From the NCBI GenBank assembly GCA_001564205.1, contig LKMY01000118.1, forward strand, positions 1 through 6,067: a stretch of DNA of 6,067 bases, read 5' to 3'. Below the pieces are notes generated by a model. That model did no database searches, had not been told where the DNA came from, and worked only from the letters and a program-made list of their open reading frames with translations. This document shows positions 2 through 6,067 of the stretch, piece after piece. Source of the stretch: Nanohaloarchaea archaeon PL-Br10_U2g5. GTDB taxonomy: Archaea; Halobacteriota; Halobacteria; Halobacteriales; Haloferacaceae. The position numbers and the translations under genes are program-made. Every line of letters starts with the position of its first letter. Within the stretch, counting starts at the first letter, position 1.

Positions 2-2248
2 TCACTCGCGCGGCGCGACCAGTTCGATCGGATGCATCGGTGCAGAGCCGAGCAGCCCGTCCAACTGCTCCGTACATGAGGTGCCGGTCGCGACGACCAC
101 GCGGTCGGTGTCGCCGAACTGCTCTTTGAGGGGCTCGCCCACGTCCATGCTCAGCTCGTAGTAGTCGGTCTTGTAACCGAACGATCCGGCCATTCCGCAA
201 CACTCCGTCTCGGAGGTGCGCACGTCGTAGCCGAGTCGCTCCATCACGGCGGTCGCGTGCTCGCTGACCCCGATCGTCCGCGCCTGACAATGCGGGTGGT
301 AAGCGACCCGGTTCCCCGACGCCACTGGTCCGGTTCCTTCAGCCGGCGCTCGCAGCGCGGCCGAGTCACCTCCGTTCTCCAGCAGGCCGAAGCAGTACTC
401 CATCACGTCGTAGCTGGCGTCGGCGAGCCGCTCGTACGAGTTGGTTGGGAGGAACTTCTCGTACTCGCTTCGGAACATCGCGAGGTCGCTCGGCTCGATC
501 ACGACCACGTCGCGGCCGGCGTCGACGTGCGTCGCAAGCGAAGCGTACGCATCGTGTGCCGCCGTTTCGGCCGTTTCAACCATCCCCTGCGAGAGCGGCG
601 GACGACCGCTTCCGGGGAGGTCGGGAACGCGGACGTGAACGCCGAGCGCTTCAAGTGCACGAACGGCAGCCTTCCCGCGGTCGACATCGGCGTAATTCGT
701 CGCTGTGTCGGGGTAGAGCACTGCCTCACGGGTTGCCTCGTCGGCTGGGACGGCGGCCCCGCCTCGCCGCTCGAACCAGTCGACGAGGGGTTCGCTCGCG
801 AACGCGGGCAGATCGCGGCGACGGTCGATGCCGGCGACGCGCTCGGCGAGGGCTCGGGCGGGGCCGAAGTCGGCGATCCGGTTCGCGATCGGAGCCGTTC
901 GGCTTCCCCACTTCGCGAGCGTCTCGTAGTTGCCGACGAGTCGCGTCCCGAGGTCGAGTCCGGCCGGCTCCTCGTCAGGGACCAGCTCCTCGAACGCCCA
1001 GTCGATCTGACTCCGGTCGGTCTCGCCGCGGTTGACCCGATCGCGGACAACCGTGTTGATCCAGGGGATGTCGATGCCGACCGGGCAGGCGGGGACACAG
1101 CGGGAGCAGCCGGTACACAGGTCGTTGAACTCGGCGGCGACATCGAGCCCCTCGATCCCCGCCTCCCAGCCGGTGGCGATGCCGCCGGAGTACGTCTCCC
1201 CGCCGAACGCGTGGCCGCCGACGCTTTGGAAGTTTCCGCAGGCGTTCGAGCAGGCCGAACACCGGATGCAGTACAGCGTCTCTTTCAGCTGCTCGTCGTC
1301 GCGCATCGCCATGCGTCCGTTGTCGATCAGCACGAGGTGGAACTCGCGATCGTCGCCGGACCCGTCGGCGAGGGGCTCCTCGTCGCCCGCGAAGTCCGGA
1401 ACGGGTGAGTCGACCGGCGGCGTCAGCGTCGAGATGTAGGAGGTCACGTCCTGACCGGTTCCCGAGCGGCCGATCAGCTCGACGAACGGCGAGAAGTCTT
1501 CGACGGTCGGGACGAGCTTCTCGACGCCCGCGACCGCGACGTGGGTGTCCGTCGCGGTCACCGTCTTTCGAGCGTTGCCCTCGCTGGTGACTAACAGCAT
1601 GGTACCGGAGTCGGCCGCGATGAAGTTCGCACCCGTCATCCCGACGTCCGCGTCTTCGACCAGCTCGCCGAGCCGCTCGCGGGCGAACATCGTCAGCTCC
1701 TCGGCGGTCTGTGGCGGGTCGTCGGGATCGAAACGCTCGGCGAACAGCGCCGCGATAGCTTCCCGAGACTTGTGGATGGCGGGTGCGACGATGTGCGACG
1801 GGGCCTCGTCGGCGAGTTGGAGCACCCACTCACCGAGGTCGGTCTCGACGACCTCGACGCCGACCGCCTCCAAGGCCTCGTTCACCTCGATCTCTTCGGA
1901 GGTCATCGACTTCGATTTGATCAGGCGATCGGCGTCGCGTTTCTCGGCTGTCAACTCGGTGATGTACTCGTTCGCGTCCGCGGCGTCGTCTGCGAGATAG
2001 ACCGTCCCGCCGTTGGCCTCGATCGTTTCGGTGACCTCCTCGATCAGCTCGGGCAGTTGCGCGATCGCGTCTTCTTTGATTTCGCGGGCCTCCGTTTTCA
2101 GCGTCTCGTAATCGTTGAGGCGCCCGGTCGATTCGTATCGCCCGGCGTTGAAACCGCGGGTGTTTTCAGCGACGGCGTCACCCTCGGTCGCCATCAGCTC
2201 GCGGATTCGGTCCGCCTTGTTCGGGGTAGCCGGACTGTCACTACTCAT
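2..2248 (-). CDS. lutB: LutB/LldF-type LUD-domain iron-sulfur protein fused to a C-terminal CCG (LutA-like) module
   Basis: Likely the electron-carrying subunit of a cytoplasmic L-lactate (2-hydroxyacid) oxidation complex. Residues about 50-310 form a LUD domain: KSKSM at 111-115, NEALEAVGVEVVETDLGEW at 123-141, SHIVAPAIHK at 151-160, GANFIAADSGT at 206-216 and EGNARKT at 223-229. Two ferredoxin-type 4Fe-4S motifs follow: C327, C330, C333, C337, then C378, C381, C384, C388-Pro. The first motif ends CGNF rather than the usual CPxx. Residues about 431-748 are a CCG module: H653-C654, C683-C684-G685 and C725 look like one intact non-canonical cluster site, but the earlier CCG motif reads G546-S547-G548. 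LutB proteins usually run about 470 residues with LutA separate; this 748-residue fusion may replace both. The ATG is fixed by an in-frame TGA 6 bases upstream and a good Shine-Dalgarno. It overlaps lutC by 8 bases, so the two are co-transcribed. Family call is secure; L-lactate as substrate is inferred. Confidence 0.93.
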   Translation of the reverse strand: MSSDSPATPNKADRIRELMATEGDAVAENTRGFNAGRYESTGRLNDYETLKTEAREIKEDAIAQLPELIEEVTETIEANGGTVYLADDAADANEYITELTAEKRDADRLIKSKSMTSEEIEVNEALEAVGVEVVETDLGEWVLQLADEAPSHIVAPAIHKSREAIAALFAERFDPDDPPQTAEELTMFARERLGELVEDADVGMTGANFIAADSGTMLLVTSEGNARKTVTATDTHVAVAGVEKLVPTVEDFSPFVELIGRSGTGQDVTSYISTLTPPVDSPVPDFAGDEEPLADGSGDDREFHLVLIDNGRMAMRDDEQLKETLYCIRCSACSNACGNFQSVGGHAFGGETYSGGIATGWEAGIEGLDVAAEFNDLCTGCSRCVPACPVGIDIPWINTVVRDRVNRGETDRSQIDWAFEELVPDEEPAGLDLGTRLVGNYETLAKWGSRTAPIANRIADFGPARALAERVAGIDRRRDLPAFASEPLVDWFERRGGAAVPADEATREAVLYPDTATNYADVDRGKAAVRALEALGVHVRVPDLPGSGRPPLSQGMVETAETAAHDAYASLATHVDAGRDVVVIEPSDLAMFRSEYEKFLPTNSYERLADASYDVMEYCFGLLENGGDSAALRAPAEGTGPVASGNRVAYHPHCQARTIGVSEHATAVMERLGYDVRTSETECCGMAGSFGYKTDYYELSMDVGEPLKEQFGDTDRVVVATGTSCTEQLDGLLGSAPMHPIELVAPRE

Positions 2249-2774
2249 CGGGAGTCACCTCGGACTCCACAGGGTCATCGTCGCGGAGTAGTACTACGTG
2301 GACCTCCTTCGGCCCGTGCGCGCCGTGGACGAGCCCACCCATATCGGCGGTCGCGCTCGGGCCGGTCGCGAAGACGACATCGACCGACTCGTCTCTGGTG
2401 CGCGGACCGAGCCACGCGAAGGCCTCGGGCATGTCGGGGACGAGATCCGACTCGCGAAGGACGACGACGTGGCGGTCAACGAAGAGGCTCACGGGCTCCG
2501 TACCGCTGGTGTCGGCCTCGATCGCGACGCTGCCGTACTCCGCGACGCCGAGCGAAGCCCCGGTGACCCCGGTGTGGGCCGCGCGCAGTTCAGCCGTCGT
2601 TGGGTCCGTCTCGACGCGACTGGGAAGCGACGCGTCGGCGACTGCAACGCCGACCGCTGGGTCGCCCGCGGCCGCGTCGATGAGCTCTGCACACGCCGTT
2701 TCGGGACCCTCGCTGACGGTAACACCAAGAGAATCGAGCCGACGCTTGAACGTTGACCGGTCGGCAACTGACAT
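2241..2774 (-). CDS. lutC: LutC/YkgG-family LUD-domain protein (lactate utilisation protein C)
   Basis: A 177-residue LUD-domain protein, probable small partner of the LutB-like protein in lactate oxidation; no cysteine cluster, signal peptide or membrane segment is visible. Family signatures are GVTGASLGVAEYGSV at 69-83 (compare the common GITGADxAIAETGT pattern) and, near the C-terminus, FATGPSATADMGGLVHGAHG at 135-154 followed by PKEVHVVLL at 155-163. It is shorter than Bacillus LutC (about 240 residues) because the N-terminal part before the LUD core is abbreviated. The ATG is fixed by an in-frame TAA at 2786-2784, 9 bases upstream, and no Shine-Dalgarno precedes it, suggesting a leaderless transcript. 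It is first in the minus-strand operon; its TAG stop lies inside the overlap with lutB. The exact biochemical role of LutC is poorly defined even in model species, so only the family and pathway are assigned. Confidence 0.9.
   Translation of the reverse strand: MSVADRSTFKRRLDSLGVTVSEGPETACAELIDAAAGDPAVGVAVADASLPSRVETDPTTAELRAAHTGVTGASLGVAEYGSVAIEADTSGTEPVSLFVDRHVVVLRESDLVPDMPEAFAWLGPRTRDESVDVVFATGPSATADMGGLVHGAHGPKEVHVVLLRDDDPVESEVTPDE
2255..2261 (-). promoter_or_regulatory. Shine-Dalgarno site of lutB inside the end of lutC
   Basis: GAGGTGA on the minus strand stands 6 bases before the lutB ATG and is complementary to the CCUCC-type 3' end of archaeal 16S rRNA. Its last three bases are also an in-frame TGA relative to lutB, so no earlier lutB start is possible. 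It lies within the final codons of lutC, which points to translational coupling or reinitiation, unlike the apparently leaderless first gene. Confidence 0.6.
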
Positions 2775-2825: not shown

Positions 2826-2914
2826 CACTGGCAGACGGGAGCTGCTTTGCGGGGGCCACTGGCAGATGGGAGCTGTTTTGCGGGGGCCACTGGCAGACGG
2901 GAGCTGTTTTGCGG
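2826..2914. repeat. 31-base direct tandem repeat, 2.9 copies, in the divergent promoter region
   Basis: Copies start at 2826, 2857 and 2888; the third stops after 27 bases at 2914. Each begins CACTGGCAGA(C/T)GGGAGCTG and continues (C/T)TTTGCGG. Copies 1 and 2 differ at two sites: C or T before GGGAGCTG, and C or T after GCTG. A decayed fourth copy may lie at 2924-2936 (GCAAGGGAGTTGC). The period is not a multiple of three, so the repeat falls in different frames in successive copies and is not coding. The copies abut with no spacers. It sits 25 bases from the lutC TATA-like element and about 45 from that of the dehydrogenase, so a regulatory role is plausible but inferred. Confidence 0.9.
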
Positions 2915-2989: not shown

Positions 2990-5900
2990 ATGGCAACCAA
3001 CACGCCGGGAGCGGACCCGGATCCAGACCCGTTGGACGGGGGAAACTTCGACTACACCGGGGGGAATATCGATCGCCCCGACCTCGTTGACGCGCTGGAG
3101 CGCCGAGTCGACGGAGACGTGCGATTCGACGACTACTCGAAGCAGCTGTACGCAACTGACGCCTCGGCGTACGAGGCGACGCCGATCGGCGTGGTACTTC
3201 CCGAATCCACGGCTGATGTCGCCGCAGTCCACGAGTACTGCTTCGAGAAGGGGATCCCGGTGCTTCCGCGGGGCGGTGGCACCTCCCTCGCCGGTCAAAC
3301 CGTCAACGAGGCGGTCGTCCTCGACCTCACACACGAGATGGACGCGATCGTCTCGACCGACTCGGATGCGCAGACTGCTCGCCTCCAAGCCGGCGCGTAT
3401 ATCGGCGATCTCAACGCCGCGGTCGCGCCACACGGGCTGAAGTTCGCTCCGGATCCGGCGTGGCGCGACAAGTCCGCGATCGGCGGTGCGATCGGTAACA
3501 ACTCCACTGGGTCACACTCGTTGAAGTACGGGAAGACGGACCATTATATCGAGGAGGTAGCGGTCGTGCTGGCCGACGGTACTCCCGCCACTTTCGGTGA
3601 GGTCGCTGTTGAAGAGCTGCGCGAATCCGCGGACCCAGACGCCGACGACCTCCTCCCTCGAATCCACGCGGAGATCGTCCGGATACTCGACGAGGAGGCC
3701 GACGCGATAGACGATCGGTTCCCCGAGATGAAACGGAACGTCTCCGGCTACAACCTCGATCGGCTGCTCGCCGAGTCGCGGGGCGAGTACGGTGAGGAGG
3801 GTGTCGTCAATCTCGGCCGACTCATGGCCGGCAGCGAGGGGACGCTGGCAACGGTCACCGAGGCGACGGTCTCGCTCGTGGAGATCCCCGAGACGAAGTC
3901 GGTCGCGCTGCTCACGTACGACGACCTCCTCGACGCGATGGAGGACGTCTCGCCGATTCTCGAACACGACCCCGCCGCCGTCGAAGTGATGGACGACGTG
4001 CTGTTGGGACTCGCGGCGAAGACACCGGAGTTCGCAGACGTCGTCGGAATGCTTCCCGACGGTACGAACTCCGTGCTCTTGGTCGAGTTCTACGCTGACA
4101 GCGACGAGGAGGGACGACAGAAGGTCGCAGACTTGATCGCGGATCGGGTGGGAGCTGGCGACGACGCGGCCGACACCGAAGAGCCGCCGAGCGCGGGCGC
4201 GGCGGAGACAACGAGCCAGCCGCGTCGGGCGGTGACCGCGATGGAGGCGCACGATCCAGCGGACCGAGACCGGTTCTGGAAGATGCGCAAGTCGGGGCTC
4301 CCGATCCTGCTGTCGCGCACCACCGACGAGAAGCACATCTCTTTCATCGAAGACTGTGCGATTCCCCCGGAACACCTCCCCGAGTACACTCGGGAGTTCC
4401 AATCGATTCTGGAAGACAACGACACCTTTGCGACGTTTTACGCGCACGCCGGTCCCGGCGTGCTCCACATCCGGCCGCTGATCAACACGAAAGAGGTCGA
4501 CGACGTGGACGCAATGGTCGACATCGCCGACCGCGTCACCGACGCCGTCGTCCGACTCGGCGGGTCAGTATCCGGCGAACACGGCGACGGCCGAGCCCGA
4601 ACGCAGTGGAATCGAAAGCTGTACGGCGACGACCTGTGGGAGGCCTTCCGCGGGTTGAAGACCGCCTTTGACCCCGACTGGCTACTCAATCCCGGAAACG
4701 TCTGTGGCGACTTCGACATGAGCACGAACCTCCGGTTTGACGCCGACTACGAGTACGACGCCGGCTTCGACCCCGCGATGGAGTGGGCCGTCGACAACGG
4801 AATGCGAGGAATGGTCGAGCTCTGTCACGGCTGCGGCGGCTGTCGGGGGCCACAGGAGACGACCGGCGGCGTGATGTGCCCGACGTACCGCGCCTCCGAA
4901 GAGGAGATTCAGGCAACTCGTGGCCGCGCGAACGTGCTACGTGGTGCCATTTCCGGTGCGATCCCCGACGATCCGACCGACGACGAGTTCGTCACCGAAG
5001 TGATGGATCTATGTGTCGGCTGTAAGGGGTGTAAAAAGGACTGTCCCAGCGGCGTCGACATGGCGAAACTCAAAGCGGAGGTCGAGCACGCCCACCACGA
5101 GGAGCACGGGATCGACCTCCGGACCCGACTCCTCGGTAACTTCGAGTCGCTCGCGCCGCTCGGCTCGGCGTTCGCGCCCCTGTCGAATCTCCCGAACAAG
5201 CTCCCCGGTGCCGGCCTGCTCGCGGAGAAGGCGCTCGGAATCGCCAAGGAGCGCGATCTCCCCACATTCCGGTCCGAGAGCCTCACCGACTGGTTCGAGG
5301 CCCGCGGCGGCGCCGGCGTCCCGAGAGACGAGGCCGACCGCGACGTGCTGTTGTTCCCCGACGTGTACACCACCTACACGAATCCCGGCGCCGGAAAGGC
5401 AGCGGTGCGTGTGTTGGAGGCCGCGAACTGCCACGTGCAGATCCCGGACGTCGACGGTAGCGGGCGGCCCCCGCACTCGAAGGGGATGCTCGATAAGTCT
5501 CGGGCGGCCGCAAGCGAGGCCGTCGAGACGCTCGCGCCCGACATCGAGGAGGGGTGGGAGGTCGTTGTCGTGGAGCCCTCCGACGCCGTCATGCTCCAGA
5601 CGGACTACCACGACCTGCTCGACGGCGACGCCAGTGACGTGCCGGACGCGGACGTGGCGACCGTCTCGGACCACACCTACGGCGTCATGGAGTACGTCGA
5701 CGCCCACCGGCTCGACGAGAAACTCGATCTCGACGCACCCAGTGAGCGCCTGACGTACCACGGCCACTGTCACCAGAAGGCGACGAAAAAGGACCATCAC
5801 GCTGTCGGCGTCCTCCGCCGAGCCGGCTACGGGGTCGACCCGCTCGACTCCTCGTGTTGCGGGATGGCCGGCTCATTCGGCTACGAGGCGGAGCACTACT

Positions 5901-6067
5901 CGATGAGCAAGGCCATCGGTCGGATTCTCTTCGATCAGGTCGATGAGAGCGACGGCGACGAGGTGGTGGCACCGGGCGCCTCCTGCCGAAGTCAGCTGAA
6001 AGAGCGCGACGGAAGCGCGCCGGAGCCGCCGCATCCGGTGGAGAAGCTCGCTGCGGCGCTGGTCTAA
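2990..6067 (+). CDS. FAD-binding and Fe-S-binding 2-hydroxyacid dehydrogenase (Dld-II/YdiJ type, GlcD-GlcF fusion), probable D-lactate dehydrogenase
   Basis: A 1025-residue respiratory-type dehydrogenase predicted to oxidise a D-2-hydroxyacid with FAD and pass electrons through Fe-S clusters. The FAD_binding_4 domain covers about 60-300, with RGGGTSLAGQ at 94-103, GAIGNNSTGSHSLKYGKT at 166-183 and GSEGTLATVTE at 281-291. The FAD-oxidase C-terminal domain covers about 300-575, with HAGPGVLHIRP at 486-496, SGEHGDG at 528-534 and NPGN at 567-570. Two Fe-S motifs follow: C612, C615, C618 with C630-Pro, then C675, C678, C681, C685-Pro. The CCG module (about 708-1025) has H926-C927-H928, C956-C957-G958 and C999, but its first CCG motif is G823-S824-G825. 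Length matches E. coli YdiJ (about 1018). No signal peptide or membrane segment. The ATG is fixed by an in-frame TGA at 2978-2980. Divergence from lutCB favours lactate, as with dld-II beside lldEFG in Shewanella; glycolate or D-2-hydroxyglutarate remain possible, so no symbol is given. Confidence 0.93.
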   Translation: MATNTPGADPDPDPLDGGNFDYTGGNIDRPDLVDALERRVDGDVRFDDYSKQLYATDASAYEATPIGVVLPESTADVAAVHEYCFEKGIPVLPRGGGTSLAGQTVNEAVVLDLTHEMDAIVSTDSDAQTARLQAGAYIGDLNAAVAPHGLKFAPDPAWRDKSAIGGAIGNNSTGSHSLKYGKTDHYIEEVAVVLADGTPATFGEVAVEELRESADPDADDLLPRIHAEIVRILDEEADAIDDRFPEMKRNVSGYNLDRLLAESRGEYGEEGVVNLGRLMAGSEGTLATVTEATVSLVEIPETKSVALLTYDDLLDAMEDVSPILEHDPAAVEVMDDVLLGLAAKTPEFADVVGMLPDGTNSVLLVEFYADSDEEGRQKVADLIADRVGAGDDAADTEEPPSAGAAETTSQPRRAVTAMEAHDPADRDRFWKMRKSGLPILLSRTTDEKHISFIEDCAIPPEHLPEYTREFQSILEDNDTFATFYAHAGPGVLHIRPLINTKEVDDVDAMVDIADRVTDAVVRLGGSVSGEHGDGRARTQWNRKLYGDDLWEAFRGLKTAFDPDWLLNPGNVCGDFDMSTNLRFDADYEYDAGFDPAMEWAVDNGMRGMVELCHGCGGCRGPQETTGGVMCPTYRASEEEIQATRGRANVLRGAISGAIPDDPTDDEFVTEVMDLCVGCKGCKKDCPSGVDMAKLKAEVEHAHHEEHGIDLRTRLLGNFESLAPLGSAFAPLSNLPNKLPGAGLLAEKALGIAKERDLPTFRSESLTDWFEARGGAGVPRDEADRDVLLFPDVYTTYTNPGAGKAAVRVLEAANCHVQIPDVDGSGRPPHSKGMLDKSRAAASEAVETLAPDIEEGWEVVVVEPSDAVMLQTDYHDLLDGDASDVPDADVATVSDHTYGVMEYVDAHRLDEKLDLDAPSERLTYHGHCHQKATKKDHHAVGVLRRAGYGVDPLDSSCCGMAGSFGYEAEHYSMSKAIGRILFDQVDESDGDEVVAPGASCRSQLKERDGSAPEPPHPVEKLAAALV

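Follow-up and report, generated by a model that had tools for sequence, protein, structure and literature searches.

The window analysed here, a 6067-base stretch of contig LKMY01000118.1 from Nanohaloarchaea archaeon PL-Br10_U2g5, contains three genes by open reading frame calling: a LutB fusion, LutC, and a divergently transcribed dehydrogenase of the Dld-II/YdiJ type (Dld). Our subject is the C-terminal tail of LutB, which is homologous to that of the dehydrogenase, and the source from which it was acquired. The features, with window coordinates, are as follows.

2 to 2248, minus strand: LutB/LudB fusion protein of 748 residues, ordered LUD, Fer4 dicluster, linker, CCG1, CCG2 (open reading frame, Pfam)
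1328 to 2044, minus strand: LUD domain of LutB, residues 69-307
1073 to 1276, minus strand: ferredoxin dicluster domain of LutB, residues 325-392, its first half LutB-like (PF13183, identities)
953 to 1171, minus strand: stretch covering the greater part of the probable LutB-to-Dld-type junction, residues ~360-432 (segment and sliding identities)
749 to 955, minus strand: Dld-type helical linker of LutB, residues 432-500 (identities)
449 to 736, minus strand: LutB CCG1, degenerate, residues 505-600 (G546/S547 at the CC dyad, D588 at a Cys position; predicted local distance difference test score, pLDDT)
14 to 313, minus strand: LutB CCG2, residues 646-745, with C654, C683, C684 and C725 (PF02754, Cys counts)
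2241 to 2774, minus strand: LutC/LudC, a LUD protein of 177 residues overlapping the start of LutB (PF02589, E 4e-16)
2990 to 6067, plus strand: divergent Dld-II/YdiJ-type dehydrogenase of 1025 residues, ordered flavin adenine dinucleotide (FAD) domain, Fer4, linker, CCG1, CCG2 (open reading frame; PF01565, PF02913, PF13183, PF02754)
5114 to 6064, plus strand: linker-CCG1-CCG2 module of the dehydrogenase, residues 709-1025, homologous to the LutB tail

Pfam searches find LUD (PF02589), Fer4 (PF13183) and one CCG domain (PF02754) in LutB. Its LUD domain and its Fer4 dicluster with eight cysteines place it with LutB/LldF, and these cysteines (C327, 330, 333, 337, 378, 381, 384 and 388) are invariant across 34 aligned rows. 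It scores 325.2 bits against TIGR00273 (LutB/LldF), below the curated cut-off of 444.8, and its best NCBIfam model is LdhH (NF045670), matched over nearly its full length at 429.7 bits, below the cut-off of 800. LutB lacks FAD_binding_4 and FAD-oxidase_C and so is not a Dld-II dehydrogenase; the neighbouring dehydrogenase has both, together with Fer4 and one CCG domain. The latter scores 488.6 bits against YdiJ (NF049975; cut-off 1350) and, judged by its sequence, is a Dld-II relative rather than YdiJ proper. The nearest named genomes are Halorubrum (best segment 88-89%), and metagenome contigs hold near-identical copies of the window.

An earlier note on this DNA had aligned LutB 432-598 with dehydrogenase residues 709-875, and a recount on the translations reproduces this exactly, without a gap and at a constant offset of 277, with 85 of 167 residues identical. 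The core, LutB 478-556, was said to hold about 49 identities (roughly 60%) and holds 49 of 79 (62%); the match resumes, as described, at CCGMAGSFGY (LutB 683-692, 10/10, offset 273). The matched stretch occupies window positions 455-955 on the minus strand, and the full LutB tail 5-955. BLASTP aligns LutB 373-745 with dehydrogenase residues 670-1021 (154/383, 40%, E 1e-74), extending into the second half of the ferredoxin domain. The description of the two modules as near-identical in layout thus stands for the layout; the sequences themselves are ~40-62% identical. Third codon positions of the tails agree at 0.49, against 0.38 expected from composition, the same codon is used at 44 of the 85 identical residues, and the longest exact DNA run is 13 nt. 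At the level of DNA the tails are thus not recent copies.

To assign the tail to a family, profiles built from three to six sequences each were scored on 18 haloarchaeal LutBs. For the CCG part the mean scores are 206.8 bits for haloarchaeal Dld, 145.6 for bacterial Dld, 112.7 for GlpC, 64.0 for YdiJ and 44.2 for LutA; with the linker included they are 277.4, 209.0, 162.7, 67.0 and 60.6 bits in the same order. Profile-profile comparison of the LutB tail gives E values of 4e-70 (haloarchaeal Dld), 9e-51 (bacterial Dld), 5e-33 (GlpC) and 2e-15 (LutA). The tail therefore resembles Dld more than it does GlpC or LutA, and it carries the Dld-type motifs PD..TNY, EPSx, CCGMAG and GxSC, of which PD..TNY, EPSx and GxSC were not found in four LutA rows. 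On these profiles and motifs, the C-terminal module of haloarchaeal LutB (LudB) is of the Dld-II type and not of the LutA type.

The domain order of LutB and its near full-length LdhH match of 429.7 bits could also be explained by a simple lutB-lutA fusion, as in bacterial LdhH, followed by convergence; moreover, bacterial LutB too has a linker-like RDLP...W tail. However, the LdhH model is filled side by side by Bacillus LutB (positions 2-465) and Bacillus LutA (465-705), and on the CCG part it gives Bacillus LutA 221 bits and Escherichia coli YkgE 184, versus 56 for the haloarchaeal tail, which is thus not the LutA-type tail of LdhH. The weak LutA profile score, the missing motifs in LutA and the linker identities given below also oppose such a fusion, and we regard it as very unlikely. 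LdhH itself reads as a true lutB-lutA fusion, and because the tail of its model is LutA-like, LutB was probably fused twice, the haloarchaeal protein representing a second and different event.

Identities along the protein indicate where the two parts meet. Over residues 322-345 haloarchaeal LutB is closer to bacterial LutB (0.44) than to haloarchaeal Dld (0.24), and over 370-396 it is alike to both (0.34 and 0.37). Across the linker (432-500) the values become 0.18 for the bacterial LutB tail and 0.43 for haloarchaeal Dld, with 0.21 versus 0.46 in CCG1 and 0.24 versus 0.42 in CCG2. Change-point analysis peaks at LutB residue 356 and again, less strongly, near 429. This switch and the change points put the break inside the shared ferredoxin domain or directly behind it, where recombination would come naturally; the join probably lies within residues ~356-432, the linker having been replaced as the CCG domains were gained. 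The proposal that LutB had gained a CCG module of Dld-II type is thus right as to type and too narrow as to unit, since the linker moved too.

For phylogenetic analysis near-copy rows were dropped, leaving 99 rows and then 73; a separate 73-row set contained 18 LutB, 23 haloarchaeal Dld, 22 bacterial Dld, six GlpC and four LutB+LutA rows. Of 120 proteins found, 11 cluster representatives were chosen and ten used. A Dld piece (L111 3-1976) and loci L168 and L171 were left out, and two sequences first labelled 'Dld' (L031 1-1332, a frame whose N-terminus lies beyond the locus edge) and 'other' (L028) were relabelled LutB by their motifs before the 99-row tree. In that tree of CCG modules 35 LutB rows form one clade (100) and 36 haloarchaeal Dld rows another (91), and the two are sisters (89). 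With the linker added (73 rows, 309 columns) LutB and haloarchaeal Dld unite at 92/88 (bootstrap/Shimodaira-Hasegawa approximate likelihood ratio test, SH-aLRT) within a wider Dld and LutB group (98/96) that leaves the GlpC and LutB+LutA rows outside. When amino acids are recoded to four classes, with D, E, K, Q and R as one letter, the union has support of 99.7/100 (SH-aLRT/bootstrap), the wider group 94.5/96 and LutB itself 90.9/78. LutB tails and haloarchaeal Dld tails are reciprocally monophyletic. The earlier note had called for a tree of this kind, and its LutB modules branch beside the haloarchaeal Dld modules; a grouping of LutB with LutA or GlpC, away from Dld-II, does not appear in the best trees.

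A discrete character points the same way. EtfD is described as having a linear cluster in CCG1, with ligands Cys503, 538, 581 and 584, and a noncubane one in CCG2, with ligands Cys637, 672, 673, 709 and 712 and a His (PMC13083937). We placed the LutB counterparts by motif with GlpC as a guide, and those in CCG1 are all residues other than Cys: T515, G546/S547 at the CC dyad, E585 and D588. The dyad lacks Cys in 35/35 LutB and 36/36 haloarchaeal Dld rows. At 588 every one of the 35 LutB rows has Asp, and the 36 Dld rows have Asp (32) or Glu (four); one further LutB, at locus L165, has Ser. The complete dyad and the EPSC Cys are present together in 18 of 22 bacterial Dlds, the other four being three YdiJ-like rows and one with DC/EPSS. 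In CCG2, C654, C683, C684 and C725 are present in every LutB (35/35) and every Dld row counted, and Gly at position 722 replaces the first Cys of the CxxC in LutB and Dld, a Cys kept in 6/6 GlpC rows. The shared loss of CCG1 ligands, mostly by the same replacement, is the best discrete sign of common origin. A different change is seen in haloarchaeal GlpC (L033-L036), where CSG stands for CCG in both CCG domains of 4/4 rows.

The predicted structure of LutB has a mean pLDDT of 67, and ten-residue blocks from 481 to 630 score 83-97 except for 60 at 551-560. Its residues 8-399 match LutB from the integrative model of LutA-LutB, and its tail matches EtfD and HdrB.

Several observations weigh against a haloarchaeal Dld as the source. 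The 73-row tree of CCG columns joins LutB and haloarchaeal Dld at 84/67. By approximately unbiased (AU) tests, a clade of all Dlds that leaves LutB outside is not rejected (p 0.398, 0.382, 0.153 and 0.168), nor is LutB with LutA (0.172, 0.275 and 0.106, and 0.054 on recoded letters) or LutB with GlpC (0.167, 0.071 and 0.414); LutB with bacterial Dld gives 0.126 and 0.047. Constraint trees from a fast search lie behind the pairs 0.153/0.168, 0.054/0.106, 0.071/0.414 and 0.126/0.047. Haloarchaeal GlpC is nearer to LutB than bacterial GlpC is in the linker (0.32 versus 0.21) and CCG1 (0.30 versus 0.20), so that shared composition may add to the raw identities; CCG2 shows no such haloarchaeal excess (0.28 versus 0.32). 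Of the NCBIfam models GlpC scores best on the LutB CCG part (128 bits; YdiJ 65), presumably because the library has no fitting Dld-II model, since the window's own Dld tail ranks them alike (GlpC 152, YdiJ 86). YdiJ-type Dlds have lost the same CCG1 ligands with other replacements, and the loss is therefore possible more than once. The LutB model falls below pLDDT 50 in the ferredoxin region (330-439) and the CCG2 loop (684-704), and bacterial sampling consisted of plasmid records, E. coli and one protein search, covering part of the phyla.

Two of these points bear on an older source, either a Dld-type protein or a stand-alone Fer4-linker-CCG-CCG subunit (compare the split Dld-II-B of Desulfovibrio), with LutB sister to all Dlds and the ligands lost in parallel. 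The unrejected all-Dld clade and the independent losses in YdiJ-type proteins favour it, but the best trees unite LutB with haloarchaeal Dld and the two share an acidic residue at 588, and we think it unlikely. As for LutA, a source that the AU tests do not formally reject, a Kishino-Hasegawa test on recoded letters gives p 0.036. The profile scores, the common ligand loss and the tree position, which by itself is not secured by the AU tests, uphold the earlier assignment of the tail to a Dld-II type.

Of 39 Halobacteria genomes, 34 contain a full-length match to the LutB tail, at 47-87% identity. That the LUD half is present too was established by comparison for 30 loci and L165, and by near full-length LdhH matches for three genomes (G005, G006 and G011). 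A stand-alone LutA was not seen in the 39 genomes, in that all listed matches to the Bacillus LutA query (best 54.6 bits, 27% identity) lie in stop-to-stop frames of at least 430 residues. Across 120 genomes of the phylum, LdhH-model matches spanning LUD and CCG occur, among the matches listed, solely in class Halobacteria; ten other genomes have LUD-Fer4 matches, mostly in frames of ~370-430 residues, with CCG matches elsewhere, again among the matches listed.

In 22 of 28 named loci, within the fetched flank, a Dld gene lies upstream in opposite orientation, and in 17 it directly adjoins lutC; in Halogranum rubrum a lactate permease gene stands between Dld and lutC-lutB. This arrangement, found also in the window, would suit a recent local swap or gene conversion between divergent neighbours; the earlier note had suggested duplication or swap from a Dld-II-type neighbour. 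However, tail identity is 0.412 for LutB and Dld of the same locus (18 pairs) and 0.406 across loci (306 pairs), and Dlds of two other species match the window LutB over 478-556 better than its neighbour does. These comparisons gave no sign of gene conversion, and the neighbours therefore do not homogenise each other. With the reciprocal monophyly of the tails and a common codon at just 44 of 85 identical residues, the local swap is refuted at present sampling and we give it almost no weight. That the LutBs form one clade across the sampled class, with no extra closeness to their own neighbours, points instead to an ancient event.

Tree shape alone does not give the direction of transfer, and the haloarchaeal Dld could have taken its tail from LutB. 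This is highly improbable, because bacterial Dlds already have the FAD-Fer4-linker-CCG-CCG layout and the hallmark letters, and no CCG tail is present in four bacterial LutBs or in the LUD proteins listed from the phylum's other genomes.

We therefore consider it probable that haloarchaeal LutB is a chimera of a LUD and ferredoxin LutB with a Dld-II-type linker-CCG1-CCG2 tail, the exact donor being most likely an early haloarchaeal Dld and less likely an older relative. The short tail of an ordinary LUD-ferredoxin LutB would have given way to a duplicate of the tail of an early haloarchaeal Dld, by recombination within or immediately behind the ferredoxin domain that both proteins have, and this before the sampled Halobacteria split. 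The fused tail would take over, in one chain, the job of the separate LutA of bacterial LutABC. Electrons from L-lactate would pass from the LUD part through two ferredoxin clusters to the single CCG cluster site left, in CCG2 (C654, C683, C684 and C725), and leave for the same acceptor as those from the similar tail of the D-lactate enzyme, which is probably the menaquinone pool or a partner common to both enzymes. CCG1 would be a structural remnant that keeps its fold and carries no cluster. The broader proposal, that LutB became a one-protein system at least twice, with a LutA tail in bacteria and a Dld-II tail in haloarchaea that gives the D- and L-lactate dehydrogenases a common single-CCG-cluster exit to one acceptor, seems to us evenly balanced.

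Other features of these loci may be recorded. The intergenic region between lutC and dld contains, at window positions 2826-2914, 2.9 copies of a 31-bp unit with 94% matches; no exact copy of the core of this unit is present in 177 fetched loci, and a short motif of it is absent from the intergenic regions of 16 relatives. In one genome (G027, L071) LutB and a Dld lie tail to tail with matches ~70 bp apart, so that their related tails make up an inverted pair that has diverged. The LutB of uncultured archaeon A07HR67 (L019 6001-8024) has no match to ~residues 110-176 in LUD, reflecting a deletion or an assembly fault. The Natronosalvus genome of L025 has a second LutB-type tail near an HdrD-like frame (L031 1-1332), and genomes G031, G038 and G039 have two LutB matches each. 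Ten genomes of the phylum outside the sampled Halobacteria (L148-L157) encode FAD and CCG proteins of ~1020 residues with CCGIPM (9/10) and CCGSV (10/10), apparently a family apart from Dld-II.

If correct, this origin explains why LudB matches LutB over its first two thirds alone and why LutA was unseen in the genomes searched. A domain would then have passed between two enzymes that act on opposite enantiomers and whose genes are often neighbours. The event would parallel the bacterial LdhH fusion, which drew on another donor, and it may mean that D- and L-lactate oxidation share one electron acceptor. For annotation, the label 'LutB + LutA fusion' is probably wrong for class Halobacteria. 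We found no treatment of the origin of this tail in the literature searched, most subscription journals lying outside its coverage; LUD-CCG architectures as such are already reported in the LUD paper (PMC3924224).

The lutB-lutC pair of the window is of the same kind as Haloferax volcanii LudBC (HVO_1692/HVO_1693), and L-lactate oxidation by the window protein is proposed by analogy with the genetics of LudBC as an L-lactate dehydrogenase in Haloferax. The match of B. subtilis LutB to Haloferax LudB is reported to end at position 490 of 733 (PMC8305020), in passages that do not identify the remainder of the protein. Like haloarchaeal LutB, LdhH/LldH (NF045670, which we take to be one family with DVU3033 of Desulfovibrio) combines LUD, Fer4 and a CCG tail in one chain with a small LUD subunit beside it, but the tail of its model is LutA-like (Bacillus LutA, model 467-705) and that of haloarchaeal LutB Dld-like. 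In Desulfovibrio, DVU3032-33 is described as the L-lactate dehydrogenase (by deletion) and DVU3027-28 as the D-lactate dehydrogenase, and gene fusion or splitting is mentioned (PMC4481167); Shewanella LldEFG is said to stimulate Dld-II (PMC3949148, citing Pinchuk 2009). Dld-II/YdiJ dehydrogenases share the linker-CCG1-CCG2 tail, ungapped over 167 residues, but begin with an FAD dehydrogenase part, in place of which LutB, having no flavin domain, carries LUD; the haloarchaeal tails are without the CCG1 cysteines that most bacterial Dlds (18 of 22) retain. In the LutA-LutB complex (9a6l, an integrative model) LutA forms its own chain, unlike the haloarchaeal arrangement, and EtfD (9ojn) has clusters in both CCG domains and a membrane part.
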